Source of the DNA: Saprospiraceae bacterium
GTDB taxonomy: Bacteria; Bacteroidota; Bacteroidia; Chitinophagales; Saprospiraceae
Assembly (NCBI GenBank): GCA_020630475.1
Contig: JAHDBI010000009.1
Span: 1 to 59,087, forward strand
Direction: 5' to 3'
Length of the DNA stretch: 59,087 nucleotides
The notes under the pieces: generated by a model
What the model was told of the DNA's origin: nothing
Databases searched by the model: none
What the model saw: the letters and a program-made list of their open reading frames with translations, nothing else
Translations under genes and position numbers: made by a program
Part shown: piece after piece, positions 25,398 through 58,160 of the stretch
Layout of the letters: each line of letters starts with the position of its first letter
How positions within the stretch are numbered: position 1 is the first letter of the stretch

Positions 25398-26060
25398 ATG
25401 GAAATTGAAGGATTTATATTCGATTTAGATGGTGTTATTGTTGATACAGCAAAGTATCATTTTACCGCTTGGAGAAGATTAGCAAATGAACTTGGAATAG
25501 ATTTTACAGAAAAGGAAAATGAACTTTTGAAAGGCGTTTCTCGAAAGCAGTCTTTGGAAGTAATTCTTGGTTTTGGTGATGTTCAATTGTCTCAAGAAGA
25601 AAAGGATAAAAGACTACATCTAAAAAATGAATGGTATTTAGAACTTATATCAAACATCGACGCCTCAGAAATCTTGCCGGGTGCTTCTGACTTACTGGTA
25701 CATCTTAAAGAAAATTCTTTGAGAATAGCCTTAGGTTCAGCAAGTTCAAATGCTGTCAAGATCCTCAATAAGATCGGTTTGATTGATTACTTTGAAACCA
25801 TTATTGATGGAACAAAAACGACCAAAAGCAAACCTGACCCTCAGGTATTTCAATTGGCTGCGAACGATCTGGGCTTAGCGCCCAAACAATGTATTGTTTT
25901 TGAAGATTCAGTCAAAGGAATTCAAGCAGCGCAGACTGGTGGATTTTTTGATATTGGCATTGGTTCAGCTGAAAACTTACCAGAGGCAAGCTATTGTTAT
26001 CCATCTTTAGCAGAAATCAATTTTATTGAATTAAATAGACTATTCGAAATCAAAAAATGA
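25398..26060 (+). CDS. pgmB: Beta-phosphoglucomutase
   Basis: 220 residues, HAD superfamily with cap. The nucleophile is Asp9 in IFDLDGVIVDTAKYHFTAW; GSASSNAVKILNKIGL, KSKPDPQVF and VFEDSVKGIQAA supply the remaining HAD motifs. It converts beta-glucose-1-phosphate to glucose-6-phosphate. Its stop overlaps the start of the GH65 phosphorylase by ATGA, and beta-glucose-1-phosphate is that enzyme's product, so substrate assignment is strongly supported by context. Confidence 0.95.
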   Translation: MEIEGFIFDLDGVIVDTAKYHFTAWRRLANELGIDFTEKENELLKGVSRKQSLEVILGFGDVQLSQEEKDKRLHLKNEWYLELISNIDASEILPGASDLLVHLKENSLRIALGSASSNAVKILNKIGLIDYFETIIDGTKTTKSKPDPQVFQLAANDLGLAPKQCIVFEDSVKGIQAAQTGGFFDIGIGSAENLPEASYCYPSLAEINFIELNRLFEIKK

Positions 26061-28375: not shown

Positions 28376-28381
28376 TTTGTC

Positions 28382-42357: not shown

Positions 42358-45300
42358 TTATTTTAAAACAATCATTTTTCTTGTTGCTGTGAAGGAACCA
42401 GCCTCCAACTTATAATACAATACTCCTGATTGATTGATTTGCGTATTATCAAAACTGACCGTGTTTAAACCAGTTTTGAATTCACCTGAAACTCTTGTTA
42501 ACAACTTACCACTTAAATCAAATACCGAGATAGATGCGTTCATATTCTCTGGTAATTGAAATTGGATATCTGTTGATTTAACAAATGGATTAGGTGTATT
42601 TTGTAACAAGACAAAATCTTGTGATTCAAGCACTTCCGTTGTACCGTCTCTAAGAACAACATTATAGGTTGTTAACTCAGCATCGTAAGATTCTGCAGTT
42701 GCAATAGCGTCGTTTATTTGTAAATCTGTGAAATCACCTTTCTGAGCGCTTGTCCACTCAATAGTGAATAAAGTCTCCTCCTTAAGGATTTCTAATTCTT
42801 CTACAGCATTCCAACTGAAACTAATCAATCCGTTTCCTGCGTCATCGAATCCAAAGTTTTGAGCATTTACATTTAAAGCACCCGCTATGATATTTGTTGG
42901 AGTCATCTGACTTTCGTCGAAAGACATTGTAAACTGCATACCGATGGTGTTGATTAAATCAGCAGCTTTTACATCCATAAGTACTTTTTCATTAGCAACA
43001 AAAGTTTGCTCATCGATGCTTAAAGAAACTTCTTCAGAAGATCTATTCTCCGCTTGATTATTCAACAAGTTGTTTGTAGCGGTATAATTTACGTCACCGA
43101 TTTTCACTGCAACGAAATCTACATCTTCGTCACTTAATACTAAATCATCGTATTCGAAGTTTTCAGGAAAACCCCATGGCTCATCCCAAAGTTCAAATTC
43201 ATGATCTCTTCTTACGAATCTCCAACTGGTATTGTCTGGATAGTTCACATAAACTCCAAGAATCAGTTTTCTCAATTCGATCAAGTCGATAGAAGAAATA
43301 GATTGTGAGTTATTGATATCCGCAGCGATCAATTTATAAGAATCATCTAACTGTATTAAGTTTAAGATATGCTTTTGAATTAGTACTAAATCCAAAGTAG
43401 ATACCCCATTTAATGGATCATCATTTTTATATGGACCAACTTCATAATCATTATAGAATGGAACTCCATTAAAACCATAATCACCTTCAGAATCAGTCAT
43501 ATTCATGGTACCTGTGCTACTTCCAAGGTCCATTAGCTCAACTCCAATATTTTCAAGACCCTCTAACTCATGACTCACTACTCTACCGCTAATTGAAGCC
43601 ATAGCTCCAGCTTGGTCAGCACATGCATTGGAGTTATTGTCTTGTAATACAAGTGTAACTGTACAGAAGTCAGAATTACCGTCCGAATCAATCACATACA
43701 TATTTAACATAATTTCTTCTGCAATTCCGTTTGGAATATCACTACAATCAAAAAATAAAACTTGTTGATTCCCAGCCTCGTTGAATGAAAAGATCAATTG
43801 ATCTTCTGGAGTACAAGTATCTTCACTCTTGATATTAAAATCACTTGCCCAAATCTCAGCATTTCCGTCTGCATCTAAAACCCAAGTCACTGATGCTCTA
43901 CAGATTGGTGTTGGAGCTTTTCCATCAGATACAAAAAAGTTGTACATGCATATTCCTATATTACCACACTCGTCTTGAGCATAAAACGTAATCTTATAAG
44001 TTCCTGAACTGAAAGTCCCTGTGGCATGATTTCCTGTACCCGTAAAATCAACTGGTGCACTTGTCGATAAATCGTCAATATCAAATGAATAAATCAAATC
44101 AGCAGTAGACGTACAATCATCTGTTGCAAAAGCCAATAGATCAACATAAGCTTCACAAGTCCCGTCATCAGCGTCAAACTGCATATTTGAACAATCACTA
44201 GTGAAGGTTGGATTTTGATTATTGATCACATCAATTTCCTGTGTGTATTCTAAAAACACTGGATTAGATGGGTCAAAAGTACACCAGTCCGCTACTTTCC
44301 AATGTCTAAGTATTGTCACACAAGCTGTTCCACTATTATAGAACACTTCATCATCATAGGATGTCGCATCAACAATACATCCATTATTATTAATTACTGG
44401 AATAGAGTTTAATTCTTCAGGAGACGTTCCTGATAAATCACATCCAGAAACCGTTCTATCTCCAGGCCAACTTACGTCTCCATAGGATAAAACGTCATTG
44501 TTGGTTACGTTAATCGTTTGGATACAAGTTGCCGTTCTACCTTGATCATCCGTTGCAGTCCATGTTCTATAAATAGTTCCTACACCACAATCATTAAATG
44601 AACCACTGTCCGTATATGTTACGGTTGTACTAGAACAATTGTCACTTGAAGTCGGAGAACCTGTTATAGATAAATTATCTGCATCTTGGGTACAACTAAT
44701 TGTTACATTACCAGGACAAGTAATGGTAGGATCGAATTTATCCTGAACATCAACATTGACATAACAGTCGTTATAGTTTCCTGCAGCATCAAATACTCTC
44801 AACACCACATCAATATATCCCGCACCAACATCCTCACAGCAGAATGTAATCTTATCTCCGAATACTAAATCTGAAGGATTCCCACAATTTGAAGTAACTC
44901 TTCTCACTGCGAAACTATCTACACCACAGTTATCCCAACTATGATCATCAAAAGTTTCTGCGTACACCTCACCCCAACCAGATGGCTCAAGTGAAACGAT
45001 AGTAAAACCTTCACAAGCAGGAGTAGGAGCTTCGTTGTCTTGAATAAAAACCTCCGTAAAACATTGTGAGCTATATCCACATTCGTCAGTAATTGTATAT
45101 ACCAACCAGGTCGTATCTTGAGGTAAATCAGGAATTGTAAATCCAATAGTAGAATTACCAGTAATACCCGTATAAATAGGATTCAAAAATGGATTCCCAC
45201 TTTCATCTCTTAATTTATACCCTACGATATAATCCGTTTCAGAGCAATCGAATATTGAAAAAGGAGCAGGAGCTAAAAAGTCACCTACACATTCTCCAGG

Positions 45301-46302
45301 ATTTGTGTAACCTACTAAATTATCATCAACACAACTCACAACTGGAGGCTTGTTATCTATGATCTTGATGATTTGGTTATGATTTAATTGACTTCCTGTA
45401 CACCAGTCCAAAACAGTCCATTGACGCAATGTTTTGATTCCAGATCCACATAGATCAAAAATCAAGTCTTCGTAGAACCATTGGATATTGTCACAAGATA
45501 AGCCAGTTGGATATCCAGATGTTTCAGGGGAAACTGCACCACTCGGTAAAAATATAGTAGTTAGACTTCCACATTCAAGTGATGGTTCATCTACATCGTC
45601 ATAATTTGGAGGAAAAGTGACTGCAGCTAGAGATCCTTTGATTACCCTAATGATCTGATCACAAGATGCTGTATTTCCAGATGCATCTGTCACCACCCAT
45701 GTTCGAGTAATAGACTTCACAAAAGGATCAACACAAGCTAATGCAGTTTCTTCATCGCTATACGTATAAGTTAAAACACCACCACACGCATCAACAGCAA
45801 TTGGACGAGGCACTGTACCACCTTCTGTAGTCGGTGCTAGATTATCGTCACAATCTCTATCCACTGGAGCTCCAGTACAACCTGGAAAAGTAGGCTCTAA
45901 TTTATCTTGAAGTAAAATGTTACCCCAACAAGTTAAGTCACATGCAATGTGTCTAACCTTAGTGATCAACACTTGATTAATCCATGTTCCATCTAATTGT
46001 GTACCAGATGTACCAGGATCTGCATCTACTGGATTTCCTTGACTATCAAAAGCAAGTACTTCATAATCCGCATCTACACCATGCATATCCTCAAGAATTA
46101 AATCAGCAGTTAAAGTTAACTGACAGTTAATGTCAAGGGACATATTAATTCCATCATTACAAGCCATTGTGAAATCACATTGGCTAGTAGCCATTTGACT
46201 AAATGAAATTAATGTTAGGAAAGCGAACAGCCCAGATCTAAGCATCTTAGAGCAGTTACGCCCGATGTTTAGATTCTTTGTTATAAAATTAGGTTTGTTC
46301 AT
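42358..46302 (-). CDS. Giant T9SS-secreted protein P1: HYR-like modules, CnaB-like/dockerin, cohesin-like domain, sorting domain
   Basis: 1314 residues from the ATG at 46302; an in-frame TTG at 46332 lies within a -7 box. A signal peptide core at about 20-38 (LFAFLTLISFSQM) is followed by a Cys-rich N-module shared with P2 and P3 (ACNDGINMSLDINC ... CWGNILLQDK). Many HYR/Ig-like units come next, each with patterns like RTWVVTDASGNTASC or DNCG. At about 900-960 a CnaB-like domain (GRVVSHELEGLENIGVELMD) leads into a dockerin (about 962-1017), the SWRFV and FVAVKIGDVN linkers, a cohesin-like beta domain (about 1050-1190), and a type A sorting domain from about 1231 (LLQNTPNPF ... ATRKMIVLK). It is exported by Sec then T9SS; surface or released. 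Role unknown; adhesion or matrix building is inferred. Confidence 0.82.
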   Translation of the reverse strand: MNKPNFITKNLNIGRNCSKMLRSGLFAFLTLISFSQMATSQCDFTMACNDGINMSLDINCQLTLTADLILEDMHGVDADYEVLAFDSQGNPVDADPGTSGTQLDGTWINQVLITKVRHIACDLTCWGNILLQDKLEPTFPGCTGAPVDRDCDDNLAPTTEGGTVPRPIAVDACGGVLTYTYSDEETALACVDPFVKSITRTWVVTDASGNTASCDQIIRVIKGSLAAVTFPPNYDDVDEPSLECGSLTTIFLPSGAVSPETSGYPTGLSCDNIQWFYEDLIFDLCGSGIKTLRQWTVLDWCTGSQLNHNQIIKIIDNKPPVVSCVDDNLVGYTNPGECVGDFLAPAPFSIFDCSETDYIVGYKLRDESGNPFLNPIYTGITGNSTIGFTIPDLPQDTTWLVYTITDECGYSSQCFTEVFIQDNEAPTPACEGFTIVSLEPSGWGEVYAETFDDHSWDNCGVDSFAVRRVTSNCGNPSDLVFGDKITFCCEDVGAGYIDVVLRVFDAAGNYNDCYVNVDVQDKFDPTITCPGNVTISCTQDADNLSITGSPTSSDNCSSTTVTYTDSGSFNDCGVGTIYRTWTATDDQGRTATCIQTINVTNNDVLSYGDVSWPGDRTVSGCDLSGTSPEELNSIPVINNNGCIVDATSYDDEVFYNSGTACVTILRHWKVADWCTFDPSNPVFLEYTQEIDVINNQNPTFTSDCSNMQFDADDGTCEAYVDLLAFATDDCTSTADLIYSFDIDDLSTSAPVDFTGTGNHATGTFSSGTYKITFYAQDECGNIGICMYNFFVSDGKAPTPICRASVTWVLDADGNAEIWASDFNIKSEDTCTPEDQLIFSFNEAGNQQVLFFDCSDIPNGIAEEIMLNMYVIDSDGNSDFCTVTLVLQDNNSNACADQAGAMASISGRVVSHELEGLENIGVELMDLGSSTGTMNMTDSEGDYGFNGVPFYNDYEVGPYKNDDPLNGVSTLDLVLIQKHILNLIQLDDSYKLIAADINNSQSISSIDLIELRKLILGVYVNYPDNTSWRFVRRDHEFELWDEPWGFPENFEYDDLVLSDEDVDFVAVKIGDVNYTATNNLLNNQAENRSSEEVSLSIDEQTFVANEKVLMDVKAADLINTIGMQFTMSFDESQMTPTNIIAGALNVNAQNFGFDDAGNGLISFSWNAVEELEILKEETLFTIEWTSAQKGDFTDLQINDAIATAESYDAELTTYNVVLRDGTTEVLESQDFVLLQNTPNPFVKSTDIQFQLPENMNASISVFDLSGKLLTRVSGEFKTGLNTVSFDNTQINQSGVLYYKLEAGSFTATRKMIVLK

Positions 46303-46329
46303 TGTATTTATTTTAGTATCGGTTTTTAT

Positions 46330-46337
46330 CAAATTTA
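46330..46337 (-). promoter_or_regulatory. -7 promoter box of P1
   Basis: TAAATTTG on the minus strand (46337 to 46330) fits TAnnTTTG, 28 bases before the P1 ATG. No clear -33 partner is seen. It suggests P1 can be transcribed separately from P2. Confidence 0.4.
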
Positions 46338-46363
46338 TTCTTAGTTCAGTACGGTTAGGATTT

Positions 46364-46392
46364 AGTCTATATCGGTAAAACCGATATAGACT
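46364..46392. other. Perfect 12-bp hairpin between P2 and P1, without a U tract
   Basis: AGTCTATATCGG (46364-46375), five bases TAAAA, then the exact complement (46381-46392). It begins 17 bases after the P2 stop. The minus-strand bases that follow are AAATCC, not a U run, so it is not a standard terminator. It may act as an RNA-processing, stability or factor-dependent termination structure. Confidence 0.75.
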
Positions 46393-46408
46393 GGCTCCTA
46401 AAAAACCG

Positions 46409-49400
46409 TTACTTTATTACTATCATTTTTTTACTAGCAGTATGAGTTTCTGTTTCTAGTTGATAATAGAGTACACCCGTTTGAGATAATTGATTTGCAT
46501 CAAAACTGATCTCGTTATACCCTTTAGAGTATTCGCCACGAATCATTCTAATCACTCTTCCTGTAGTATCATAAACTTTAAGCGTCGCTTTTGAAGCTTC
46601 TGGAAGAATAAAACCAATTACGGTTGTCTGGTTAAAGGGGTTAGGTGTATTCTGTAAGAGACTAAATTGTGCAGATTTTTCACCTTCGAATCGCAATTCG
46701 ATTGGATCAACTGACACATGCCCTGCAGTAGTAGTATAAATTTCCGCCTTTGTCAATTCAGAAGTAATTTGAATATCATTTTGTAGGCTACCGTTAGTCA
46801 ATGCCGTGAATTCGAAGTCCAATACATCGTCTTCACTTGAAAGTGCATTCACTGTATTCCAACTAATCGTTACAATTCCGTTAGTAGGATCTATTAAAGC
46901 AACATTTGATTCATCTAATGATATCACATCAGATGTAGCTCCTTCAAAGCTCAATTTAGTTGCATCGTAATTTAATGTAAACTGGAATCCTTCAACATTA
47001 TTAAATGCGTCAGAACTTAGAGATAAGTTTACTCTATCTCCTTCCATATAGTCAACAGCTTTTGCATTGAATACCGTAGGTGCATTTCTAACTTCCGAAG
47101 AAGTTGATTGCATAGCGTTGTACTCGGCAGAAGCGTTCACATCACCAATTTTCACTGCGATGAAATCCGCATTTTCAGTATCAACATCTAAATCAAGAAC
47201 ATCTATTTTCTCATTGAATGGGAAAGGATCAGTTTCATCATTAAAGGTGAAAGACTCCTCCACAAATCTCCACGAGTTGTTCGCTGGTAATTCAACATAA
47301 ATACCTAGAATTAACTTTCTCAATTCAATTAAATCTATTGCTGAAATGCTCTCAGAATTGTTGACGTCCGCAGCAATAATTTTATACGGAGAATCCAGAG
47401 GTTGAAGCGTTAAAATATGCTTCTGAATCAACAACAAGTCAAGTGTAGAAACACCATTTGTGTAATCGTCATCTCTAGTTGGCTCAACAATATAGTTTTC
47501 ATGCATTGTCAAGTCATTAAAAGCATATTGACCATCATCAGCAGTCATGTCGTTGTTCAGATCAACAAACTCTTCGTTCATTAAACTTACTTCAACATTG
47601 TCAACCATATCATCTAATTCAGAGTAGATTGCTCCACTAACTAAAGCAGTTGAAGATGGAAGAACAACATCTGGACATAAGTCATTATTATCTTGTAGAA
47701 TCAAATGAGTAATACAGAAATCTTTGTTACCCATATCATCCGTATAGTAAATTTGTAATTCTATCGTATCTGAAACTCCATCTGCTATATTGAAACAATA
47801 GAAAGTTCTAGACTTATCTGCTGTATTCGCAGAGAATGAAACCTCAACATCATTATCACAATTATCTGTACCACCGGCATCAAAATCACTTGCCCATATG
47901 GTAACACTTGCATTAGGTGCTTCAATAACAGTTACAATTCCGTCTAAACAATAAGGTGTTGGTGGCTTGTTATCTTCGATTGTAATGATTTGACAACAAG
48001 ATGTTTCATTACCACAATCATCTTCTACAGTCCAACAAATTTCATGTTCGCCGTAAGGCATCACCTGATCTATCTTGTCACCTGTACCAATTATTAATCC
48101 AACTCCGTCGTTAAATTCATCTATAGTATATGTCCAAACTAAGTTTGCAGCATCTGTACAATCATCTGTTGCGGCAGCTGTGATCCAAACATCTGCGCCA
48201 CAATTTCCTACAGGATCACCTGTAATCGTTTGATTTGTACATCCAGCTGTAATCACTGGTGAACCAGAGTTCATTATTTTAATCACCTGTGTGTGATGCC
48301 AAATACCATCAGTTGGTGTAAATGGATTGTATTGACACCAATCAACAACAGTCCAGTTTCTCAATATTTTATAACATGCCTCATCCACAAATTGGAAAAC
48401 AATGTCTTCATAATCGAATGCGACTTCATCACATGGTCCAGAGTTAACCACCGGATATTGTGATGATGACGGTAAATCCTCAGGATCAATTCCGCTATCT
48501 AAACATCCATTTTGGCTCGTATAATCATTTGGCCAATTGATATCAAATGCATTCAATGGATCCAAGTTTTGGAATGTGATCACTTGTGTGCAGTAATCAA
48601 CATTTCCATATCCATCGGTTGCTGTAAAGTTTCTAATAATTGTTCCGTTACCACAATCTGTGAAATTCTCAGTTGAGCTTTCCGTAATGGTCGCTCCACA
48701 AACATCACTGACTGTAGGATAACCATAGTTGGCTGATAAATTTGTCGTTGGCGAACTACATCCTACGGTTACATTTGCAGGACAAGTTAAGACTGGAGCA
48801 GCATTATCTTGAACGTGTACTTCAACCATACAGAAGTTACTGTTACCAGAATAATCAAATACAGTTAACTGTACCATTTGAACCGTTCCAACATCATTAC
48901 AACAGAATTTAACTGCTTCATTGCCAGATGGTTGAGAACATCCGTTGTTATTCATTCTTCTTACTTCGAATCTTTCGATAGCACAGTTATCTACACTACC
49001 ATCATCGAAAGTCTCCCATGTTGCCCAAGCCATTCCTGTTTCATTTAATGCTACATAAGTCACTAAATCACATACAGGGTTGGGTTGCTCGTTATCTTCA
49101 AAACCAACTTCGGTAAAGCATTGAGAAACATTTCCACACTCATCGAAGACTGTATATACAATCCATACACTGTCTTGAATGCCTTCTAATCCAGTAATCG
49201 TATATCCTGTAGTGGAGTTTCCGATTACTCCATCCGTAGTAGGCGTATCATATGGGTCGCCATTTTCATCTCTTAATTTGTAAGATACACTATAGTCCCA
49301 ATTAGAACATTCTCCAAAAACAGTTGGTGGATAAACATCTATATCTTGAGAACATTCATGAGCACTTGTACTCAATCCCCACTCTGGTGGAGCAGAACAA

Positions 49401-50992
49401 GATATTTCTGTATCCATAACTGTAATCAATTGCACAGTTGTATCTATTTCTAAAGTACACCAATCCGTAGCGATCCATCTTCTCAATAATTTGAATGAGT
49501 GGTCACCACAAATATCAATTCTGGTATCTTCATAAATTACTTCAACATTAAAACACGTAGCACCTGTAGGTGATCCTGTATGTGTAGGACTAGGATGACC
49601 ATTAGGTAATTTTGCCCAAGGACCACATGCCACTAATGAAGGATTAGGTCCTGTTGCTGAATCGTAATTAGGTGGATAAACCAAATCAGTTAATCCTGCT
49701 CTATTTACAAATATATTTGTTGAACACGTAGACGAACCTGAGTGCTCATCTGTAACCGTCCATGTTCTTACTATTTGTCCGCCAAAAGGTCCAACGCAAA
49801 ATGTATTAATTAAATCATCTTCCCAAGTCAACCAGGCATCACCACAGTTATCATATCCTGGAAGTAGATAAGTATCATTTCCTAAATCAACTGGCACACC
49901 AGTATAAGTGGTAGGCAAAGGTAATCCTGTAGCACCAGGACCCGTTAGATCATCACAATCAACAGTGACATCAGCTCCGCAAGCTAATTGAGGTACTGAT
50001 TTGTCTTCTACAGTTACGTAACCCCAACAAGAGTTACCCCCACATATTTGACTAATCATTACTCTTAGTTGTTTTCCAATGAAAGCTTCACCGAAAACAC
50101 CATTAGGATATGTAATTCCAGTTTCCTCATCTAGAAATTCGATAACGTAGGAATCATCATCAAACATCATGTCTTCCAAAACAATATCAGGTGTAACCCT
50201 AACTTCACAATCATGATTGACTGAAACATTTACATTATTATTACAAGCTAAAGAGATGATATCTTCAATAGTCACCTCTAAGGTCAAATCGAAAATACAA
50301 CCATCCATTGTTGTACCCGTAGATTGTAAGGTATGTGTACCTGGCGTTGTACTCCAATCAATTGAAATTGAATTAGCAGGAGGTAATGTCGTACCACCTG
50401 ATGTAACCACTCCACCACTAGATAAGAACCAAGCTATAGAGGCAATCTCTGTAGTTGGTATAGCTATGGTATAGTTTTGTGATTGACCAGTACAAACAAA
50501 TTGATCCCCCATAATCGTGTCTGGTGGATATATACATGCTTCAATATTTGAAGCCATACCTGTATTTGTTAATACACCTTCACCAGCAAATATCCCTGAG
50601 GTTTCAATAGCTGTGAAAGAATAAGGCTGTCCGTCCAATCTCCAAGCATCTAAAATATAATCTCCCGAACCGGCAGGCGTTTCAGGTATTTTAGTTCCAG
50701 CTGGAAATAATGTTAAAGGATCAGAACCTGGTATATATAAACCAGAATTCGCAGCAATTTCCCAGCATTGGCCTACCCTTGGTATACCTGGTGCTGGAAC
50801 GGTAATAACGACCTGATCCATAAATCTTGTGGAATCTGGTCTTAATGGGTCATTGGAACAATTACATGCCGAAATGCCCATTGCAGATTGTGAAAACATG
50901 GAAACAACTCCAAACAACACCAAAAATGCTGTTTGAAGGAATTTCGCTTTTAATCTCAATCCGTCTCTTTGTGTAAGTAACGGTCTCATCAT
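46409..50992 (-). CDS. Giant T9SS-secreted protein P2, paralog of P1
   Basis: 1527 residues, the largest of the set. The signal peptide core FLQTAFLVLFGVVSMFSQ ends near residue 39. The first 200 residues include a unit unique to P2 (PPDTIMGDQFVCTGQSQNY) resembling a PKD/Ig-like module. The shared Cys-rich module (LACNNNVNVSVNHDC ... GGNSCWGYVTVEDK) and the HYR-like array follow, with recurrent RTWTVTDEHSGSSTC and RNWTVVDWC patterns. The dockerin is at about 1176-1234 (GVSTLDLLLIQKHIL, ADVNNSESISAIDLIELRK), then SWRFV, FIAVKIGDVN, a cohesin-like domain (FQFTLNYDATKLSFEGA) and a sorting domain from about 1442 (LLQNTPNPFNQTTVIGF). Both Met1 and Met2 are possible starts. Plus-strand frames here are shadows. 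Confidence 0.82.
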   Translation of the reverse strand: MMRPLLTQRDGLRLKAKFLQTAFLVLFGVVSMFSQSAMGISACNCSNDPLRPDSTRFMDQVVITVPAPGIPRVGQCWEIAANSGLYIPGSDPLTLFPAGTKIPETPAGSGDYILDAWRLDGQPYSFTAIETSGIFAGEGVLTNTGMASNIEACIYPPDTIMGDQFVCTGQSQNYTIAIPTTEIASIAWFLSSGGVVTSGGTTLPPANSISIDWSTTPGTHTLQSTGTTMDGCIFDLTLEVTIEDIISLACNNNVNVSVNHDCEVRVTPDIVLEDMMFDDDSYVIEFLDEETGITYPNGVFGEAFIGKQLRVMISQICGGNSCWGYVTVEDKSVPQLACGADVTVDCDDLTGPGATGLPLPTTYTGVPVDLGNDTYLLPGYDNCGDAWLTWEDDLINTFCVGPFGGQIVRTWTVTDEHSGSSTCSTNIFVNRAGLTDLVYPPNYDSATGPNPSLVACGPWAKLPNGHPSPTHTGSPTGATCFNVEVIYEDTRIDICGDHSFKLLRRWIATDWCTLEIDTTVQLITVMDTEISCSAPPEWGLSTSAHECSQDIDVYPPTVFGECSNWDYSVSYKLRDENGDPYDTPTTDGVIGNSTTGYTITGLEGIQDSVWIVYTVFDECGNVSQCFTEVGFEDNEQPNPVCDLVTYVALNETGMAWATWETFDDGSVDNCAIERFEVRRMNNNGCSQPSGNEAVKFCCNDVGTVQMVQLTVFDYSGNSNFCMVEVHVQDNAAPVLTCPANVTVGCSSPTTNLSANYGYPTVSDVCGATITESSTENFTDCGNGTIIRNFTATDGYGNVDYCTQVITFQNLDPLNAFDINWPNDYTSQNGCLDSGIDPEDLPSSSQYPVVNSGPCDEVAFDYEDIVFQFVDEACYKILRNWTVVDWCQYNPFTPTDGIWHHTQVIKIMNSGSPVITAGCTNQTITGDPVGNCGADVWITAAATDDCTDAANLVWTYTIDEFNDGVGLIIGTGDKIDQVMPYGEHEICWTVEDDCGNETSCCQIITIEDNKPPTPYCLDGIVTVIEAPNASVTIWASDFDAGGTDNCDNDVEVSFSANTADKSRTFYCFNIADGVSDTIELQIYYTDDMGNKDFCITHLILQDNNDLCPDVVLPSSTALVSGAIYSELDDMVDNVEVSLMNEEFVDLNNDMTADDGQYAFNDLTMHENYIVEPTRDDDYTNGVSTLDLLLIQKHILTLQPLDSPYKIIAADVNNSESISAIDLIELRKLILGIYVELPANNSWRFVEESFTFNDETDPFPFNEKIDVLDLDVDTENADFIAVKIGDVNASAEYNAMQSTSSEVRNAPTVFNAKAVDYMEGDRVNLSLSSDAFNNVEGFQFTLNYDATKLSFEGATSDVISLDESNVALIDPTNGIVTISWNTVNALSSEDDVLDFEFTALTNGSLQNDIQITSELTKAEIYTTTAGHVSVDPIELRFEGEKSAQFSLLQNTPNPFNQTTVIGFILPEASKATLKVYDTTGRVIRMIRGEYSKGYNEISFDANQLSQTGVLYYQLETETHTASKKMIVIK

Positions 50993-51100
50993 CGATTTTA
51001 ACTTTTGTAAAATTCGTTTATGCTCAAATAATCTTTTCGATGGCTTTTAAAACAAAAAGAAGTGTGTAAGTTCTTGTTGGTTATATAAGCCAAAATCTCA

Positions 51101-51129
51101 TGTCGGAATAAATCTGATAAACTCCGACA
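51101..51129. promoter_or_regulatory. Inverted repeat upstream of P2
   Basis: TGTCGGA, 15 bases, TCCGACA. It lies about 110-140 bases before the P2 start codon; operator function is a guess from position. Confidence 0.3.
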
Positions 51130-51290
51130 GACCATAAAGACCAATTTCTAAGCCAAAAGGCCAATCAAATGATGACTATATTTAATACGTTTAGATATGG
51201 GAATTTTTCTTAATTCATAAAGAATTAGAAATGTGCTAAGAAGAGCAAAGTGGGTCGAGAAAAAAAATGTAAAGTTTTTTACCATAAAAT

Positions 51291-51324
51291 CCAGTAAATC
51301 CATCTGGCAGATGGATTTTACTGG
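51291..51324 (-). terminator. Terminator-like hairpin after P3
   Basis: A 15-bp stem with one bulged base (51309-51324 against 51291-51305) around a 3-base loop, 18 bases beyond the P3 stop. The minus-strand tail ATTTTATGG is only moderately U-rich. Confidence 0.6.
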
Positions 51325-51342
51325 TTTCTAAGGGTTTAAGTA

Positions 51343-54300
51343 TTACTTGTTGAGATGTACAAGAGTCTTAGAAATAAGCCCCCTTGAACTCTCAATTTTA
51401 ACATAATAAACACCGCTATTTCGGAAAGATTCCTCTGGGATTATTAAGCTATTTTTTTGATTAAAATCAAGGTTTTTATAGACGTTTACTGTTTGTCCTA
51501 GATGATTCAATATTTCTATTTCAAACACCTGAGTATCATTAGACCAATCGATAGTAACATCACTGACACTAGGATTGGGATAGATATTTATGTCATCTAT
51601 GTCGATATCAAATGGAGCATCATTCGATTTATACTCTAGGAGTTCAATAGACATGATTTCATTATCAAAATAAAGTTCGGATCGGAAATCATTACCCAAT
51701 TCTAAAGGAATCCAAGATCCTTCATTTTCGAGTATAATTTCATATATCACTTCTCCTTTAACAACATCTTGAATCGCTTGGCTGTAGAAAACGTGTTTCA
51801 ATTGATCATTATTAATATTGAAGGAGTAAGTATCCACGTCGTAAAGTGTTGATGAGAAATCCTTCACCATTTGACCATTAAGATCAAAGCTCCATTGACA
51901 AGCTTCAAACGAAAATGATTCATTGGCGATAACGCTAACTACCCTATTTTCTCCTTTTTCGAATACTTGAAATGTAAACGGTATTGAATTGATAGTTCGG
52001 GCCTCTACATCGTCTTCACCAGTAAAACTATTTAAAGTTGCATTGACGTCTCCGACTTTGACTGCAATAAAATCCGCATCTACTGCATTGGTCACCAAAG
52101 GTTCAAACATGATATTTTCATCTGGATTCCAAGGCTCAAGAAAGTCAGTAAATACAAAGTCTTCGTTAACAAATCTCCAGGAATTGTTATTTGGAAATTC
52201 TAGTTCCAGTCCTAGGATCACTTTTCTTAAAGAAACAAGATCTAGACTCGAAATAGAATTAGAATGATTGATGTCTGCGGCTAAAATATCATAAGCTGAA
52301 TCTAGGGTATCAATCTTCAAAATATGTTTCTGAATTAGAAGTAAATCCAAAGTAGAAACACCATCTAATATCCCATCATCTTTAGACGGCGAAAGCTCAT
52401 AGCTAATATGGGAAGGGATATTGTCAATTTCATATTCTCCAGATCCATCCGTCATAGTAAGACCAGAGTACTCCTCAATTCCAGCATAATAGTTTAGCTC
52501 AACATCCTCTACTTCAAAACCGTAATAGTTTCTGGTATTCCCTTTTATACTTCCATCAATAATATTACCAAGGCAAGTTTCATTGTTGTCTTGAACATTA
52601 AGTACCACAGTACAAAAATCTTGATTACCTGCTTCATCTGTTACCCATAATTCGATGTAAAATGACTGTGCAATTCCATTAACTAAACTATCACAATTGT
52701 AGGTTCTGTTCACATCAGTTACATCTTCAGAAAATGAAAATTGTAAATCCTCATATGCCGTACAATTATCAAAACTATTTAATTCGAAGTCGGTCGCCCA
52801 AACACTTATTTCTCCTGCTGAAGGCATAATCACCGTGGTCAAATCTGAATGACAATAAGGTGTTGGCAGTTTACATTCTTTAACTTCGAAACCATACTTA
52901 CAATCGCTTACATTTCCGCATTTATCTTCAACTATCCAGAGAACATCATAAAATCCTTGATCTAAGGAAACTTCAATTGAATCTCCGAAACCAGTCATTT
53001 CATAATTATTATCATCATTAAAGTCAATGAACCATTGCCACTGTAAATCTTCTGCTGGAGTACAGTCATCTATTGCGGATGCATCTAATTTTATGGTACC
53101 GCTACATTCAACATCTGGGTCTAGTATACAAAGTAAGGTATCTGTACACGCTGAGGTAAATAAAGGAGCGACTGTATTAAACTGTTTGATTGTTTGAGTA
53201 TGATGCCAAATGCCAAACAAAGGTTCCTCAGTAAATTGACACCAGTCTATCACTGTCCATTCCCGTACAATCTTAACACAAGCACTATCAACGACATTGA
53301 AAATTTGATCGGTATAACTTGCTGCTACATTGCTACAATATTCATTCGTAAAGATAGGCTCACCTGTGATGGTCAAATCCATTTCGATATCACCACATCC
53401 ATATTCCTCGTAGTTTTGAGGCCAAGTAATATCAGCAATGGTAAAAGGATTATTATTTACAAAGGTGATTGTTTGACTACAAGAATCTTGTTGATTATAC
53501 TCATCTGTAGCCACAAAGGTTCTTGTTATAGTCCCTACATGACAAGTCAAATCAGTGACCACAGTTTCTTCCACACTGACGAAACAATTGTCAGAAGCAA
53601 CACCATCATATCCAATAATAACGCCATTGATATAAATTGGATTTTGATTCGCAATATCCGTTACAACTGTTCCAAATTCAGAAAGGTCATTTTGATTATA
53701 CGCCACATCACAATCTAAAGTTATATCTGGAGGACAGGAAATAGCCGGCTTCAATTTATCTTCTACTGTCACCTCGACCATACATTGATTCGAGTTACCG
53801 TGTATGTCCACAACGTTTAAAGCGACCATAACTATCTCATTGACCTCAGAACAGCAAAAGTCTATATATGGTCCAAATGCCAAACCATGCCCACAATCAT
53901 CCGTCATCTTAGCTGCTTCAAAATAATCTATACCGCAATTATCAAAACTTCCATCATCCAATGAGCTTGCATAAATTCGTCCTATACCGTCTAAACCTAA
54001 TGAGACTGTGGTTAATTGATCACAAGACACAAATGGTGCTGACTTATCTTCAACAAAAACCATAACATCACAAGTATCTCTACTATTACATTCATCTTCT
54101 GCTATAATTCTATAGGTATATTCTCCAATTTCTAATGAGCTTATTAAAACAAAACCGTTATTGACCGTTAGTATTTGGCTGTTGCCGAATGGGTCTATTA
54201 ATGAAGCTTGATAACTGAAATTGGAACAATTATCCGTAACTGGTGGAACAGCCATTTGATAGTTCAAAACTGAACATTCATAAGGATCTGTTTCAATCGT

Positions 54301-55554
54301 AAAATCATTCATACAGTCTATCACCGGAGCTTCTAAATCCATGATTTTAATGATTTGATTATGGGTTGTATTAGCCGCTGCACACCAATCGATAACCAAC
54401 CATGATCGAAATACTTTAAAACCACCTCCGCACTCTTCAAAAACAATATCGTCAAAAGTTGATTCCATATTTTCACAAGCCATTGTCGAAGGGAAACCAG
54501 TATACACGGGGTCAGGATTACCGTCCAGCAAACTAGGCCAATTACCTGAACAACTTAAAACCGGCTCATCTATATCGTCATAATTTGGAGGAAAGATGAT
54601 ATCTGCTAAGGTTTGAATCTCTGAATAAATAGATTGTACACAACTAATGTCATTACCTTCTGCATCTTCTGCGAACCAGGTTCGATCTATTCTCCCTTCA
54701 AAACCAGTCGAACATAACAAGGAATGATATGTATCTTGATACGAAAGGATCGCATCTGAACAAGCATCAAAATTAGTAACAGTGTATGTATTATTTCCAG
54801 TTGAAGTCACCACAGCTGCTGGAGGAATTGGAAATCCTAAATCTTCAGGACTAGAAGGATCCGCACATGAAATAGTCAAATCTTGACAAAACAATGGTGG
54901 AGGCAATTTATCTTGAACAAATAATGTACCCCAGCAACTACTCCCACCACAAACATGACCAACGCTAAAAGTGATGGTTTGATTGATATGATTTTCGTTT
55001 AATATATTATTCGGTATCAATTGATTGTTTTCATTAAAACTCTCAATGTAGTATTGACTATAGGGAGGAATGGGGTTAGGCATGAGCATCACCACTTCAA
55101 TCTCCTGCTCACAATCGCTATTTAAAGAAATATTTAAATTAGAATTACAAACCAATGTTGGAGCAGACTGAAAACTTATAACCACTGCATCATTGACTTG
55201 AACTTGAGGTCCAGGACCATCAGGGTCATCGGAAACCAAAGTTAACGTCACCCAACCATTGGCGAAGTCGGCACTACTCGGTACATATGTTGTTGTAGTT
55301 GAAAACAAACCAGTTGGCATCGATCCTGGAAGAAAATAACCTGATCCAGAAGTAAACCAGTTTCCATCAGGCACACCAGTAATACTTGCATTAAGGTCTC
55401 CTATGAGTACATCAGATCCAATACAAAGGGAAGTATCATTCCCTGCAAAAACTGTAACCATCATACCCGGAATTGCATTCATCTTATTGGCTTTAAGGCC
55501 AATAGTCATCAGCAAAATAATGGGGATCAGTAGTGTTCTTAAATAAGTCTGCAT
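51343..55554 (-). CDS. Giant T9SS-secreted protein P3, paralog of P1/P2
   Basis: 1403 residues. The signal peptide MQTYLRTLLIPIILLMTIG is near-ideal, followed by a P3-specific Ig-like segment (FAGNDTSLCIGSDV). The Cys-rich module (LVCNSNLNISLNSDC ... GGSSCWGTLFVQDK) and HYR-like array follow, including ISCPPDITLDCD and REWTVIDWCQF. The dockerin sits at about 1060-1118 (GVSTLDLLLIQKHIL, AADINHSNSISSLDLVSLRK), then SWRFV, FIAVKVGDVN, a diverged cohesin-like domain, and a sorting domain from about 1321 (INIYPNPSVSDVTIDWS, ending SKTLVHLNK). It is separated from P2 by 349 bases and a terminator-like hairpin, so it can be expressed on its own. Confidence 0.82.
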   Translation of the reverse strand: MQTYLRTLLIPIILLMTIGLKANKMNAIPGMMVTVFAGNDTSLCIGSDVLIGDLNASITGVPDGNWFTSGSGYFLPGSMPTGLFSTTTTYVPSSADFANGWVTLTLVSDDPDGPGPQVQVNDAVVISFQSAPTLVCNSNLNISLNSDCEQEIEVVMLMPNPIPPYSQYYIESFNENNQLIPNNILNENHINQTITFSVGHVCGGSSCWGTLFVQDKLPPPLFCQDLTISCADPSSPEDLGFPIPPAAVVTSTGNNTYTVTNFDACSDAILSYQDTYHSLLCSTGFEGRIDRTWFAEDAEGNDISCVQSIYSEIQTLADIIFPPNYDDIDEPVLSCSGNWPSLLDGNPDPVYTGFPSTMACENMESTFDDIVFEECGGGFKVFRSWLVIDWCAAANTTHNQIIKIMDLEAPVIDCMNDFTIETDPYECSVLNYQMAVPPVTDNCSNFSYQASLIDPFGNSQILTVNNGFVLISSLEIGEYTYRIIAEDECNSRDTCDVMVFVEDKSAPFVSCDQLTTVSLGLDGIGRIYASSLDDGSFDNCGIDYFEAAKMTDDCGHGLAFGPYIDFCCSEVNEIVMVALNVVDIHGNSNQCMVEVTVEDKLKPAISCPPDITLDCDVAYNQNDLSEFGTVVTDIANQNPIYINGVIIGYDGVASDNCFVSVEETVVTDLTCHVGTITRTFVATDEYNQQDSCSQTITFVNNNPFTIADITWPQNYEEYGCGDIEMDLTITGEPIFTNEYCSNVAASYTDQIFNVVDSACVKIVREWTVIDWCQFTEEPLFGIWHHTQTIKQFNTVAPLFTSACTDTLLCILDPDVECSGTIKLDASAIDDCTPAEDLQWQWFIDFNDDNNYEMTGFGDSIEVSLDQGFYDVLWIVEDKCGNVSDCKYGFEVKECKLPTPYCHSDLTTVIMPSAGEISVWATDFELNSFDNCTAYEDLQFSFSEDVTDVNRTYNCDSLVNGIAQSFYIELWVTDEAGNQDFCTVVLNVQDNNETCLGNIIDGSIKGNTRNYYGFEVEDVELNYYAGIEEYSGLTMTDGSGEYEIDNIPSHISYELSPSKDDGILDGVSTLDLLLIQKHILKIDTLDSAYDILAADINHSNSISSLDLVSLRKVILGLELEFPNNNSWRFVNEDFVFTDFLEPWNPDENIMFEPLVTNAVDADFIAVKVGDVNATLNSFTGEDDVEARTINSIPFTFQVFEKGENRVVSVIANESFSFEACQWSFDLNGQMVKDFSSTLYDVDTYSFNINNDQLKHVFYSQAIQDVVKGEVIYEIILENEGSWIPLELGNDFRSELYFDNEIMSIELLEYKSNDAPFDIDIDDINIYPNPSVSDVTIDWSNDTQVFEIEILNHLGQTVNVYKNLDFNQKNSLIIPEESFRNSGVYYVKIESSRGLISKTLVHLNK

Positions 55555-55660
55555 ATTTAAAGAAATTTAAGCTTGGATTCATCTGTCCAAATATGTTCTT
55601 TACTGCTAAAAACATATTATAAATTTCTTTAATGCAACTTTTATACCAAATATTTAGATA

Positions 55661-58042
55661 CTACGGTGCCAGTTTGACAAATCTGTCTAGAATTCGTCCT
55701 GATTTTGATTTTACAAGATAAAGTCCATTCGTCAAACCTGAAACATCAATTTCCTTTGACGTCTCAGAACCTATATTTTTAATCTCATGCACCAGCAAGC
55801 CTTGTGTGTTGTATATAAATAAGGGTCCATGCCATCGATCAGATCCGATTATATTTAGAATATACGTGACAGGATTTGGATATAACTCTACTTGAGCGAA
55901 TTCTTCTTGATCACTACTTGATCTTATCAATTCAATCGATTTAAAGCTAGAAAGATCATTGTATAATTCGCTTAAGAATCCATTTGGCGAAAGCCTTAGA
56001 TCTATCGGCGTGCTACTCGTGATCGTGAATAGAATTTCATTGGCCTCAAATTGTTCTTCTTCTGGATAAACCTCAAGAACTCGTAACTCACCATCGATAA
56101 AATGGTGATTTAAATCATTCAATGAAAATGCCCCAGAGATTATTGAGCCATCTGCCATTCCATCAAATCCAAGTTGTAGTCCGTAGATACTTTGCCTTTC
56201 GGCGAAAGCCAAAGAATAATTCCACAAATCACCTACTTTTGCTTCATTAAGAACAAGCCACTCAGGAGTACCTCTTACTTCAGTTTTATCGGATTGAAGA
56301 TTCAGTTCAAAACTTTCATTGACGTCTGCTAGTTTAACACCAACAAATTCCAGAAAGCCATCATAATCTGTTAAAGGGATAGTTTTATCAATACTCATAG
56401 TGACCTCATCCTCCATTAATTCTTGATTAGGATCTACAAAAAAGAATGAATCATTGTCTGGAAAGTCAACATAAATCCCCAAGAGGGTTTTCCTCAATTC
56501 AATAAGATCTAAGGCTGAAATTTGACCATCATTATTGATGTCAGCTGCTAAGTAGTCGTAGGCATCAAGCAGTATTTCTTCTCCCAAAATATGTTTTTGG
56601 ATCAATACTAAATCGAATGTACTGACTCCTTCTAAAGGAGCCACTGATAGGCTAGGCGAAATAATATAATCATCAAATGCTCCAATGGACGATAGATTGA
56701 ATGCTCCGTTTTCATCGGACAACTCCATCATCAATTCTTCATTATCTTGGAATAAGCTCACTGCCCCACCAGAGATCTCTATACCCTCAGGAGTTCTAAG
56801 TTCACCAAGAACATCTAAATCGACTCCACAAGTCCCATTATCCGCAATAAAAAAGTGAACATCGCAATAGTCTGACTGACCACTTTCATCCGTCACATAA
56901 ACTTGTAGGTTATTCAATCCAATGTGATCACAATCAAATTGAAATAAGGTATCATTGACATTTTCCGAAAAGGACAAGTTTACATCAGAGCAATTATCAA
57001 AAGCTCCTCGATCAAACATGTTTACATTTAATGCAATTGGATCATTTCCGTTTTCAAAATTCGAATGGAGCGTCCTATAGCAATAAGGTGTCGGAGCTTT
57101 GTTATCTACCACATGAATAGTTTGATTACAAGCCCTGACATTTCCACAATAATCGTAGACTTTCCAATATATCTTGTGTGTTGAAGGCCCCACTATTTCA
57201 GGAATGGTAATAGAAATGGTACCGCCATTAGCAATCGGGTCCGTTTTAAATAAACCCACTTCATCCGGTCCAAAAAAGTAATCTTCATCTCCATTGTACC
57301 AAGTATCTACGGATAAGGTCCAAAACAGCTCATCCGATGCACACGCCCCGGAATCCGTTGCTATATTAGTTACCGTTATTTCAGCTTGACAATCGGCGTT
57401 CACCTCAATAGTAATATCTTCACAGCTAGAGTATTCTGGCCCGTCAAAATCAATAATCTTAATGGATTGAGTATGTTGCCAAATTCCTTCCCCATTCCAT
57501 AAAGGATCAGATGGATGATATAAACACCAATTGATCACCGTGTATTCATTCAAAATTTTGTAGCACCCATTGCCATTGGCAGTAACTGTTTGAGTACTTA
57601 ATGTGTATGCTATTAAATCACAGGGGCCAGCGGTCCATGTAGGTTCGCCAAAGTTTTGCGGATCTGTACAGGAAAGCGTTTGATTCGGTGGGAAGCTCAA
57701 ATTAAACGGTGCTGAGACTTCTTGCATTTCAATTAATTGAATACAACTCGGTTCATTTCCATCGAAACTTTGATTATTGTTGACATCCACAAACCAAGTC
57801 CTAAAGATATCCCCGACGTTACATCCATCTAGATCTTCAATGTCGGTATATGCCGTTGGATAATTGGTGTAAATCCCTGTTCCGACAGCCACATCATCTT
57901 CATCAATATCATCCTCGTCGTCACTACACCACAATAAAACATCTTGAGGACAAAGTATTCCTTGAGCCAATAGATTATGACCATAGCTAAATAGACAGAG
58001 CACTAAAATTAGGGTACGTCTCATGTTAGGTGAATTTTTCAT
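55661..58042 (-). CDS. T9SS-secreted protein P4, shortest member of the paralog set
   Basis: 793 residues from ATG 58042 (MKNSPNMRRTLILVLCLF); ATG 58024 gives a tighter signal peptide and a GTG at 58072 adds ten residues. P4 lacks the long HYR-like array and the shared N-terminal Cys module of P1-P3, keeping only about three units (ILCPQDVLLWCSDD, INWCLYHPSD, VYDYCGNVRACNQ). The dockerin at about 469-524 has a canonical second loop (ADINNDGQISALDLIELRK) and the divergent first half GVSTFDLVLIQKHIL. FVGVKLADVN replaces the AVKIGDVN linker. The sorting domain starts at about 715 (VELYPNPVTYILNI). It is transcribed first of the four and is divergent from the cysteine-repeat gene. Two GGCGAAAGCC elements lie in it, antisense to the mRNA. 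Confidence 0.8.
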   Translation of the reverse strand: MKNSPNMRRTLILVLCLFSYGHNLLAQGILCPQDVLLWCSDDEDDIDEDDVAVGTGIYTNYPTAYTDIEDLDGCNVGDIFRTWFVDVNNNQSFDGNEPSCIQLIEMQEVSAPFNLSFPPNQTLSCTDPQNFGEPTWTAGPCDLIAYTLSTQTVTANGNGCYKILNEYTVINWCLYHPSDPLWNGEGIWQHTQSIKIIDFDGPEYSSCEDITIEVNADCQAEITVTNIATDSGACASDELFWTLSVDTWYNGDEDYFFGPDEVGLFKTDPIANGGTISITIPEIVGPSTHKIYWKVYDYCGNVRACNQTIHVVDNKAPTPYCYRTLHSNFENGNDPIALNVNMFDRGAFDNCSDVNLSFSENVNDTLFQFDCDHIGLNNLQVYVTDESGQSDYCDVHFFIADNGTCGVDLDVLGELRTPEGIEISGGAVSLFQDNEELMMELSDENGAFNLSSIGAFDDYIISPSLSVAPLEGVSTFDLVLIQKHILGEEILLDAYDYLAADINNDGQISALDLIELRKTLLGIYVDFPDNDSFFFVDPNQELMEDEVTMSIDKTIPLTDYDGFLEFVGVKLADVNESFELNLQSDKTEVRGTPEWLVLNEAKVGDLWNYSLAFAERQSIYGLQLGFDGMADGSIISGAFSLNDLNHHFIDGELRVLEVYPEEEQFEANEILFTITSSTPIDLRLSPNGFLSELYNDLSSFKSIELIRSSSDQEEFAQVELYPNPVTYILNIIGSDRWHGPLFIYNTQGLLVHEIKNIGSETSKEIDVSGLTNGLYLVKSKSGRILDRFVKLAP
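55986..55995 (+). repeat. GGCGAAAGCC element 9
   Basis: In P4, antisense to the gene, read CTT TCG CC as Leu-Ser-Pro. Flanks CATTT and TTAGA. Confidence 0.85.
56193..56206 (+). repeat. TGCCTTTCGGCGAA 14-mer, copy 3
   Basis: In P4, antisense to the gene and in a different frame from copies 1 and 2; it runs directly into GGCGAAAGCC element 10. Confidence 0.7.
56201..56210 (+). repeat. GGCGAAAGCC element 10
   Basis: In P4, antisense to the gene, read GCT TTC GCC as Ala-Phe-Ala. It overlaps a copy of the related 14-mer. Flanks CTTTC and AAAGA. Confidence 0.85.
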
Positions 58043-58160
58043 GAAAATGCAAATTATATATGAAATTATCACATATTATTTTGTCAGATATGTTTTCTTT
58101 GTGGCTCAGAGCAGCGAATCCGACAGTACAATCCTCTAAAGGCTAACCAACTCATTTATC

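Follow-up and report, generated by a model that had tools for sequence, protein, structure and literature searches.

A CnaB-dockerin-cohesin cassette on type IX secretion clients of Saprospiraceae: a candidate non-cellulosomal surface assembly

Four giant proteins with a shared C-terminal cassette

The stretch analysed here, which we call the window, is 59,087 nucleotides of a Saprospiraceae bacterium genome (assembly GCA_020630475.1, contig JAHDBI010000009.1, positions 1 to 59,087). It contains an array of four consecutive genes on the minus strand (42358-58072) that encode paralogous giant proteins. Each protein ends in the same cassette, in the order CnaB-like domain with an apparently nested type I dockerin, SWRF...GDVN segment, cohesin, and type IX secretion system (T9SS) type A sorting domain. 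An earlier, sequence-only reading of this DNA had described four consecutive same-strand proteins sharing one terminal block, and the reading frames and profile matches confirm that description. Pairwise BLAST aligns segments of the four proteins at 26-38% identity over long stretches, which marks them as paralogues. The gaps between the genes, calculated from the coordinates, are 76, 350 and 106 bases, and an ATG start option would place the 5' end of the 55661 gene at 58042. Each protein is named below by the lower coordinate of its gene.

55661..58072, minus strand: cassette protein 1, 803 amino acids; CnaB-like domain, dockerin, SWRF/GDVN-type segment, divergent cohesin, T9SS type A domain
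55904..56824, minus strand: CnaB-dockerin-cohesin block of protein 1; modelled, with the cohesin spanning roughly model residues 184-303
51343..55554, minus strand: cassette protein 2, 1403 amino acids; cohesin weak by sequence
51604..52566, minus strand: CnaB-dockerin-cohesin block of protein 2; included in the alignments
46409..50992, minus strand: cassette protein 3, 1527 amino acids; HYR-like modules just below Pfam cut-offs, dockerin, clear cohesin, T9SS type A domain
46670..47659, minus strand: CnaB-dockerin-cohesin block of protein 3; modelled, with the cohesin spanning roughly model residues 190-325
42358..46332, minus strand: cassette protein 4, 1324 amino acids; HYR_4C modules, dockerin, clear cohesin, T9SS type A domain
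42619..43611, minus strand: CnaB-dockerin-cohesin block of protein 4; included in the alignments

All four proteins carry the C-terminal Por_Secre_tail domain of T9SS type A clients above the NCBIfam cut-off of 23, with bit scores of 38.9 (42358), 35.5 (46409), 33.2 (51343) and 29.6 (55661). SprA_N was matched on two contigs of the source genome. The type A domain itself has at least 150 matches in that genome, and another of its contigs (C98, near 19557) holds an 8892-residue open frame that ends in one.

Type I dockerins contain two calcium-binding F-hand loops with ligands at positions 1, 3, 5, 9 and 12. Dockerin_1 matches all four whole proteins, two above the Pfam cut-off of 22.9 and two slightly below it (20.5 and 22.7), and in a search of the genome all four array sites score above the cut-off. 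By profile, then, the four proteins carry type I dockerins. On inspection, the second calcium loop of the dockerin is canonical and the first is without the usual residue at position 5. In the 55661 dockerin the first loop is more degenerate and the second canonical, again by inspection and against ligand positions that we take to be standard.

Pfam Cohesin scores above its cut-off only in the 46409-50992 protein (25.7 against 24.1) and gives no row at E <= 1 for the 42358, 51343 and 55661 proteins. A family cohesin profile, built from other genomes only and run with the database size set to 10,000, gives E values of 3e-31 (42358), 1.5e-31 (46409), 0.0028 (51343) and 0.025 (55661). Judged by these scores, the cohesin is clear in the 42358 and 46409 proteins and weak in the 51343 and 55661 proteins; the 51343 assignment combines its position in the chain with a weak score.

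We aligned 92 of 93 cassettes from the window and related loci (alignment A2), 67 of which form a second alignment (A4). A profile of the 92 cassettes, searched against PDB sequences, found solved dockerins (4uyp_B, 2.4e-7) and cohesins (3l8q, 6.3e-7; 4uyp_A, 2.7e-5, the latter covering most of the domain). When the 92 were scanned singly at E <= 0.01, Dockerin_1 matched every one, CarboxypepD_reg matched 63 and Cohesin matched 46. Because of these counts, and because the four-gene order recurs in a related locus (L017, below), we do not regard the domain matches as chance.

The sequence-only reading had also placed HYR-like arrays in three of the proteins. HYR_4C lies above its Pfam cut-off only in the 42358 protein, and both HYR and HYR_4C fall slightly below theirs in the 46409 protein. 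Neither family is listed by Pfam for the 51343 or 55661 proteins, even though long segments of all four proteins align with one another.

We modelled two of the blocks with AlphaFold2, that of the 46409 protein, whose cohesin is clear, and that of the 55661 protein, whose cohesin is the weakest by sequence. The 46409 model, built on an alignment of 92 sequences, has a predicted local distance difference test score (pLDDT) of 95.6 and a predicted template modelling score (pTM) of 0.91. In VIA-align, all 50 listed chains align to it via a cohesin (best 4ums, Z 12.7 over 127 residues, root-mean-square deviation (rmsd) 2.5), and the Foldseek list opens with four cohesins, followed at rank 5 by BcpA, a Bacillus pilin. 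For the 55661 model (pLDDT 90.1, pTM 0.83), VIA-align puts cohesins at ranks 1-33 (best again 4ums, Z 10.0 over 110 residues, rmsd 2.7), with other sandwiches reaching up to Z 7.6. On balance, the domain has the cohesin beta-sandwich fold in both models. A cohesin-like predicted structure had been put forward earlier as a check on the beta domain, and the two of the four domains that were modelled pass it. A plain, general beta-sandwich was considered for these two blocks and rejected, since cohesins take the top VIA-align ranks over other sandwiches, although the Foldseek ranking for the 55661 model is less clear-cut.

The same models bear on how the dockerin is held. CnaB-type and similar structures (8bdw, UafA entries and 9hfj) align to residues 1 to about 166 of the 55661 model, using 80-92 residues, and the cassette alignment contains strong couplings between the CnaB part and the SWRF-GDVN segment, for example V19-A168 (z 10.8). 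Because the CnaB-type matches span this whole region with so few residues, and because the V19-A168 coupling agrees, the dockerin is apparently inserted in a CnaB-like domain whose last strand would be the SWRF/GDVN segment. The dockerin assignment itself rests on sequence, because the cohesin fills the structural match lists.

A family-wide cassette and its candidate partners

How widespread is this cassette? The source genome has 19 Dockerin_1 matches, 18 of them above the cut-off, and 16 dockerin proteins with the cassette dockerin motif. Two of its dockerin proteins are broken by runs of N; both stand outside the first alignment (A1), and one was scanned over the available part. A scan of genome contigs with 15 cassettes returned 295 stretches with the pattern, 246 of which encode a relative. 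From these we kept 80 loci (L numbers), fetched by the cassette alone. Seventy-nine are titled Saprospiraceae, Lewinellaceae, Portibacter lacus (an isolate) or Bacteroidetes/Bacteroidota/Bacteroidia, and one is titled as an alphaproteobacterial metagenome-assembled genome (MAG). This last cassette, L085, lies on a contig titled Alphaproteobacteria MAG OFTM70 and is probably mis-binned.

The cassette behaves as a unit. The dockerin motif was matched 107 times in 97 sequences, and in 104 of the 107 matches the frame continues for 320-359 residues, the other three being cut or ending early. We counted 120 reading frames of the exact form CnaB-dockerin-linker-cohesin, alongside 14 frames with only 2-4 cohesins, three with one cohesin, two with a dockerin only, and others. 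Conservation is highest in a few parts, among them the dockerin, the GDVN segment and the sorting-domain PNP; cohesin sequences vary much more. Within the dockerin helices (positions 91-105 and 131-141), 20 columns hold one residue at 90% or more, and the conserved polar residues include Q101 (100%), K102 (83%), H103 (98%), R136 (99%) and K137 (92%).

The order of the array recurs as well. L017 (Saprospiraceae MAG-146) keeps all four in sequence: the end of a 55661 relative comes first, then relatives of the 51343, 46409 and 42358 proteins, with identities of 39, 53, 60 and 62%, respectively, and each matches its own counterpart best. L027 preserves the order of the last three array genes, and the last two are found in order in L020, L021, L024, L049, L054, L069, L073, L090 and L093, with a score margin that is sometimes small. 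Judged from this conserved gene order, the four-gene array is old. An oddity of one genome or a mis-assembly was rejected as an explanation, since the cassette occurs throughout the family and the gene order is found again in other loci. The isolate Portibacter lacus (L039) encodes two cassettes and one three-cohesin protein. On one contig of the source genome, two giant cassette proteins (L007:6465-7724 and L008:6154-7413) have identical CnaB, dockerin and linker residues and diverging cohesins, as would be expected if the dockerin part had recently been duplicated or had undergone gene conversion.

Cohesins are also found in proteins that have no dockerin. One source-genome protein of 1141 residues contains SprB repeats, a CHU_C/type B sorting domain and cohesins, of which the family profile recognises three and Pfam two stretches. 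About 250 bases separate the start of the gene for this scaffoldin-like protein from a cassette gene upstream of it, and a PorP/SprF gene comes after it. A second source-genome gene, L015:4424-8242, encodes one N-terminal cohesin, eight SprB stretches and CHU_C, and the 10 kb retrieved with it showed no dockerin frame. Across the family, scaffoldin-like proteins carry 2-10 cohesins in tandem, and most of them also have SprB repeats and a type B sorting domain; the ten-cohesin example, L098, is a relative of 2537 residues (Pfam Cohesin E 5.6e-85, 10 stretches). Multi-cohesin scaffoldins are thus present in the source genome, with three cohesins, and in relatives, with up to ten. In another family of the class, L214:1-6606 encodes a protein with lamin-tail domains, 15 SprB stretches and two cohesins, which the family profile recognises and for which Pfam Cohesin is not listed.

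Genes for cohesin proteins and cassette genes are frequently neighbours. Among the 80 cassette-fetched loci, 13 encode a protein with at least two cohesins, and in 12 of these 13 a cassette frame (11 loci) or a one-cohesin frame cut by the locus end (one locus) lies 146-348 bases upstream on the same strand. In 18 regions selected mostly for high cohesin scores, and hence not random, a small one-cohesin protein directly precedes the tandem-cohesin protein in 16, and in four of those 16 (L099, L103, L110 and L111) a cassette gene precedes the small one-cohesin gene. PorP/SprF follows the tandem-cohesin gene in all four places tested (L001, L104, L105 and L109). The small one-cohesin protein has a type A domain above the Pfam cut-off in one of three cases tested.

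Dockerins, too, are found on their own. We selected 20 further regions, some because their dockerin frames are short or unusual and some to cover two genomes of the class. Six proteins from the regions chosen for short dockerin frames (L195, L196, L197, L198, L201 and L209) end directly after the dockerin and GDVN segment. By inspection they have an N-terminal signal-like stretch, and neither Pfam nor NCBIfam finds a sorting domain in any of the six. Their payload includes a trypsin-like peptidase just below the Pfam cut-off (L197) and DM13 (L209). In the source genome, L011:1793-2851 encodes a redoxin/AhpC-TSA protein that ends in a dockerin and in which no T9SS domain was found; by eye, L211:2048-3739 of a relative encodes a similar thiol-redox protein with a dockerin. 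If such dockerin-only proteins bind cohesins at all, the partner must be in trans.

What do the dockerin proteins carry? Thirteen dockerin proteins of the source genome match HYR (9), HYR_4C (5), DUF11 (2), P_proprotein (2), Lectin_C (1), Ig_3 (1), Redoxin (1) and Trypsin_2 (1). No glycoside hydrolase occurs among the 23 families matched by these 13 proteins at E <= 0.001, in the window's four proteins, or in the Pfam matches of 17 of the 19 source-genome dockerin proteins and of the six short dockerin proteins of relatives. Weak NCBIfam cellobiosidase rows in the short dockerin proteins coincide with the dockerin itself. For ten cohesin proteins no carbohydrate-binding module (CBM) is listed. 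The proteins searched thus include neither the dockerin-bearing cellulases nor the cellulose-binding module of a cellulosome, and we reject that identity. The payload, mostly adhesion-type (HYR, DUF11, Ig-like, C-type lectin) with a few enzymes (trypsin-like peptidase, redoxin), speaks for a role in adhesion or a matrix, as far as domain content can indicate.

We determined how the two domains co-occur in 61 family genomes, the source included, and 197 class genomes (G numbers); both sets are samples, and counts from the listed matches are lower bounds. Dockerin_1 was found in 57 of the 61 family genomes and Cohesin in 56, and a profile of three tandem cohesins matches 53. By eye, among the matches listed, this tandem profile is covered over at least 400 of its 456 positions in at least 40 genomes and over two or more cohesins in at least 45. 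The dockerin-less genomes G021, G036, G055 and G056 have 1, 0, 1 and 0 cohesin matches, and none has a tandem-profile match (p 0.0035, a rough figure since related genomes are not independent). Eight of the 197 class genomes match the cassette profile, G228 weakly, and seven match the tandem profile, the same set minus G228. Separate two-cohesin proteins are encoded in G143 and G105; in G105 they are recognised by the family profile alone. Neither the cassette nor the tandem profile matched any of the three genomes sampled from another family of the order.

Assembly in trans and its alternatives

We consider it reasonably probable that these proteins belong to a Saprospiraceae-wide, non-cellulosomal cohesin-dockerin assembly, displayed through the T9SS, whose dockerins dock in trans onto the cohesins of scaffold proteins. 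Cassette proteins would be exported by the T9SS and attached or released at the cell surface. There, the cassette dockerin, held in its CnaB-like domain, would plug in trans into scaffoldin-like or small one-cohesin proteins, presumably in a calcium-dependent manner. The docked chain's own cohesin could then take another dockerin, so that the assembly would be extended or branched. Because the payload is mostly adhesion-type modules with a few enzymes, a surface or matrix network is the likely role.

The sequence-only reading had suggested that the dockerin of one chain binds the cohesin-like domain of another, so that the four proteins polymerise into a non-cellulosomal matrix or fibre. Much of this stands: the dockerin by profile, the cohesin by fold, both partners in one chain, the T9SS signals, and the lack of a glycoside hydrolase domain in the proteins searched. 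Its set of partners, however, was incomplete. The family also encodes dockerin-free proteins with 2-10 cohesins, small proteins with one cohesin, and dockerin-only proteins, so that the dockerins of the array probably have further partners. A scaffold into which clients plug explains the data better than a polymer made solely of the four proteins and is the most economical account, while chain-to-chain polymers are possible.

Several observations count against an assembly of this kind. The window contains no multi-cohesin scaffold gene. Three family genomes, G003, G005 and G013, have 4, 6 and 4 dockerins and no Pfam cohesin, although the tandem profile does match G003 and G013. That profile gave no match in four genomes that do contain dockerins: G005, G006, G022 and G033. 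In the class genomes G116 and G248, what it matches is the cassette gene itself. Foldseek gives BcpA ranks 1-4 for the 55661 model and the first cohesin only at rank 6, and both block models (pTM 0.91 and 0.83) are compatible with a cohesin packed in cis. To these we add two results from mean-field couplings, calculated from 199 unique of 205 near-full rows (217 matches; 194 effective) over 311 of 330 columns: the highest dockerin-cohesin coupling, 4.8, is no higher than shuffling can give (3.7-5.6), and recognition positions take part in 11 of the top 25 couplings, against 4-11 in shuffles. The same analysis gave seven dockerin-cohesin pairs above z 4, against 0-3 in 12 shuffles, and several such pairs join what we take to be recognition positions (S71, T72, S106 and R114 with G224, S266, N268 and E306). 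Overall, the couplings of 199 cassettes did not decide the matter, and we set coevolution aside as proof of dockerin-cohesin pairing.

Could the cassettes build fibres by themselves? If one cassette's dockerin binds another's cohesin, head-to-tail or branched fibres would arise with no separate scaffold. Both partners do lie in one chain in most cassettes, as seen in the 120 exact frames and in the 104 of 107 motif matches with the full C-terminal stretch, and the four-gene order is conserved. Dockerin-free proteins with up to ten cohesins and dockerin-only proteins nevertheless point to partners beyond these chains, and the coupling between dockerin and cohesin is weak. We therefore regard polymerisation alone as unlikely.

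Docking in cis deserves to be treated as a serious rival, because the high pTM values, as we read them, would mean that the cohesin is confidently placed relative to the rest of its own chain. The dockerin would then pack on the cohesin of the same chain to form a rigid stalk before the sorting domain, and any other binding would be minor or regulated. The pTM values of the two three-part chains suggest a fixed arrangement, though confidence dips between the linker and the cohesin, and the two domains mostly travel together. Such docking would leave the dockerin-only proteins and the dockerin-free cohesin proteins partnerless, however, and the weak inter-domain coupling also counts against it. 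Serious as it is, we judge it quite improbable.

Least probable of all is that the domains are divergent leftovers, with folds kept, binding lost and a remaining function as spacers: the first calcium loop of the 55661 dockerin is degenerate by inspection, cohesin scores are weak in two of the four proteins and cassette cohesins vary far more than the dockerin, but the polar residues of the dockerin helices (Q101, K102, H103, R136 and K137) are highly conserved and dockerins co-occur with and lie adjacent to multi-cohesin proteins.

Assembly in trans, the reading we prefer, also admits a more speculative extension, to which we attach little credence. Type B SprB scaffolds with PorP/SprF would move 2-10 cohesins across the cell surface as gliding adhesins do, forming a mobile, branching rack with dockerin proteins as exchangeable cargo. 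Moreover, dockerin proteins with a Sec signal and without a T9SS domain might exit the cell by riding a cohesin-bearing T9SS client. Candidates for such piggy-back secretion, with a Sec-type signal, a terminal dockerin and no T9SS domain found, number six in relatives and one in the source genome.

Elsewhere in the window, adjacent GH65 and alpha-amylase genes (26057-29782) look like an ordinary cluster for alpha-glucan use, and a 1629-residue protein encoded on the minus strand (12840-17729) is TamB-like by eye. A scan of the window for RNA families and tRNAs found none.

Relation to known systems

The function of cohesins and dockerins outside cellulosomes is an open question, and the Saprospiraceae system bears on it. 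It would bring together the T9SS and the cohesin-dockerin pair, both well studied, in a single system that is present in a named isolate, Portibacter lacus. Its cohesin-dockerin pairs could also become new connectors for protein engineering. Saprospiraceae are described as abundant in wastewater plants in the part of the source available to us (PMC9304909).

The cellulosomes of clostridia and ruminococci are built from a scaffoldin, X-module-dockerin pairs and anchoring single cohesins. The Saprospiraceae system resembles them in its tandem-cohesin scaffold, its dockerin clients, the domain packed beside the dockerin and its small single-cohesin proteins. Unlike cellulosomes, it has no CBM or glycoside hydrolase in the proteins searched, it has T9SS sorting domains, and its clients also bear a cohesin. 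A second resemblance is to SprB-type adhesins, which function in gliding and have a PorP/SprF partner. The scaffold shares with them the SprB repeats, the type B sorting domain and the PorP/SprF neighbour (Pfam SprB, CHU_C and PorP_SprF were matched), but its N-terminus is a row of cohesins.

Three further reported systems are, like cellulosomes, among the closest. The hypothesised 'planctosome' of Nemodlikiaceae has an adaptor with a dockerin, a hyaline repeat and a cohesin in one chain and, like the Saprospiraceae cassette, would serve a purpose other than cellulose; it belongs to Planctomycetes and has peptidase clients and a lamin-tail anchor with one cohesin, and the accessible part of its description names no T9SS (PMC6461901). 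The cellulosome-like complex of Ca. Stygibacter, as far as the sections available describe it, likewise combines dockerin-bearing proteins, there enzymes, with a large tandem-cohesin scaffoldin that has a C-terminal surface-attachment domain, for which a T9SS review is cited; its own features are CBM2/CBM3 on the scaffold, peptidase, GH18 and GH57 clients, and a different phylum (PMC8542988). Finally, ANME archaea encode scaffoldin-like proteins with one dockerin and up to five cohesins, also non-cellulosomal and with both domains in one protein. Unlike the Saprospiraceae proteins these are archaeal, their clients are, for example, ABC transporter binding proteins, and the portion of the paper at hand names no T9SS (PMC9012536).

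Cohesin genes have been reported in two Bacteroidetes MAGs, according to the available part of that survey (PMC8547425). Our literature search, with most subscription journals outside its coverage, found no description of a cohesin-dockerin system in Saprospiraceae. Nor did the sources, in the parts available, contain the combination of a CnaB-nested dockerin, a client cohesin and an SprB-type scaffold with PorP/SprF across a family. We therefore file the Saprospiraceae system among the non-cellulosomal cohesin-dockerin systems, as a variant with a new combination of features.

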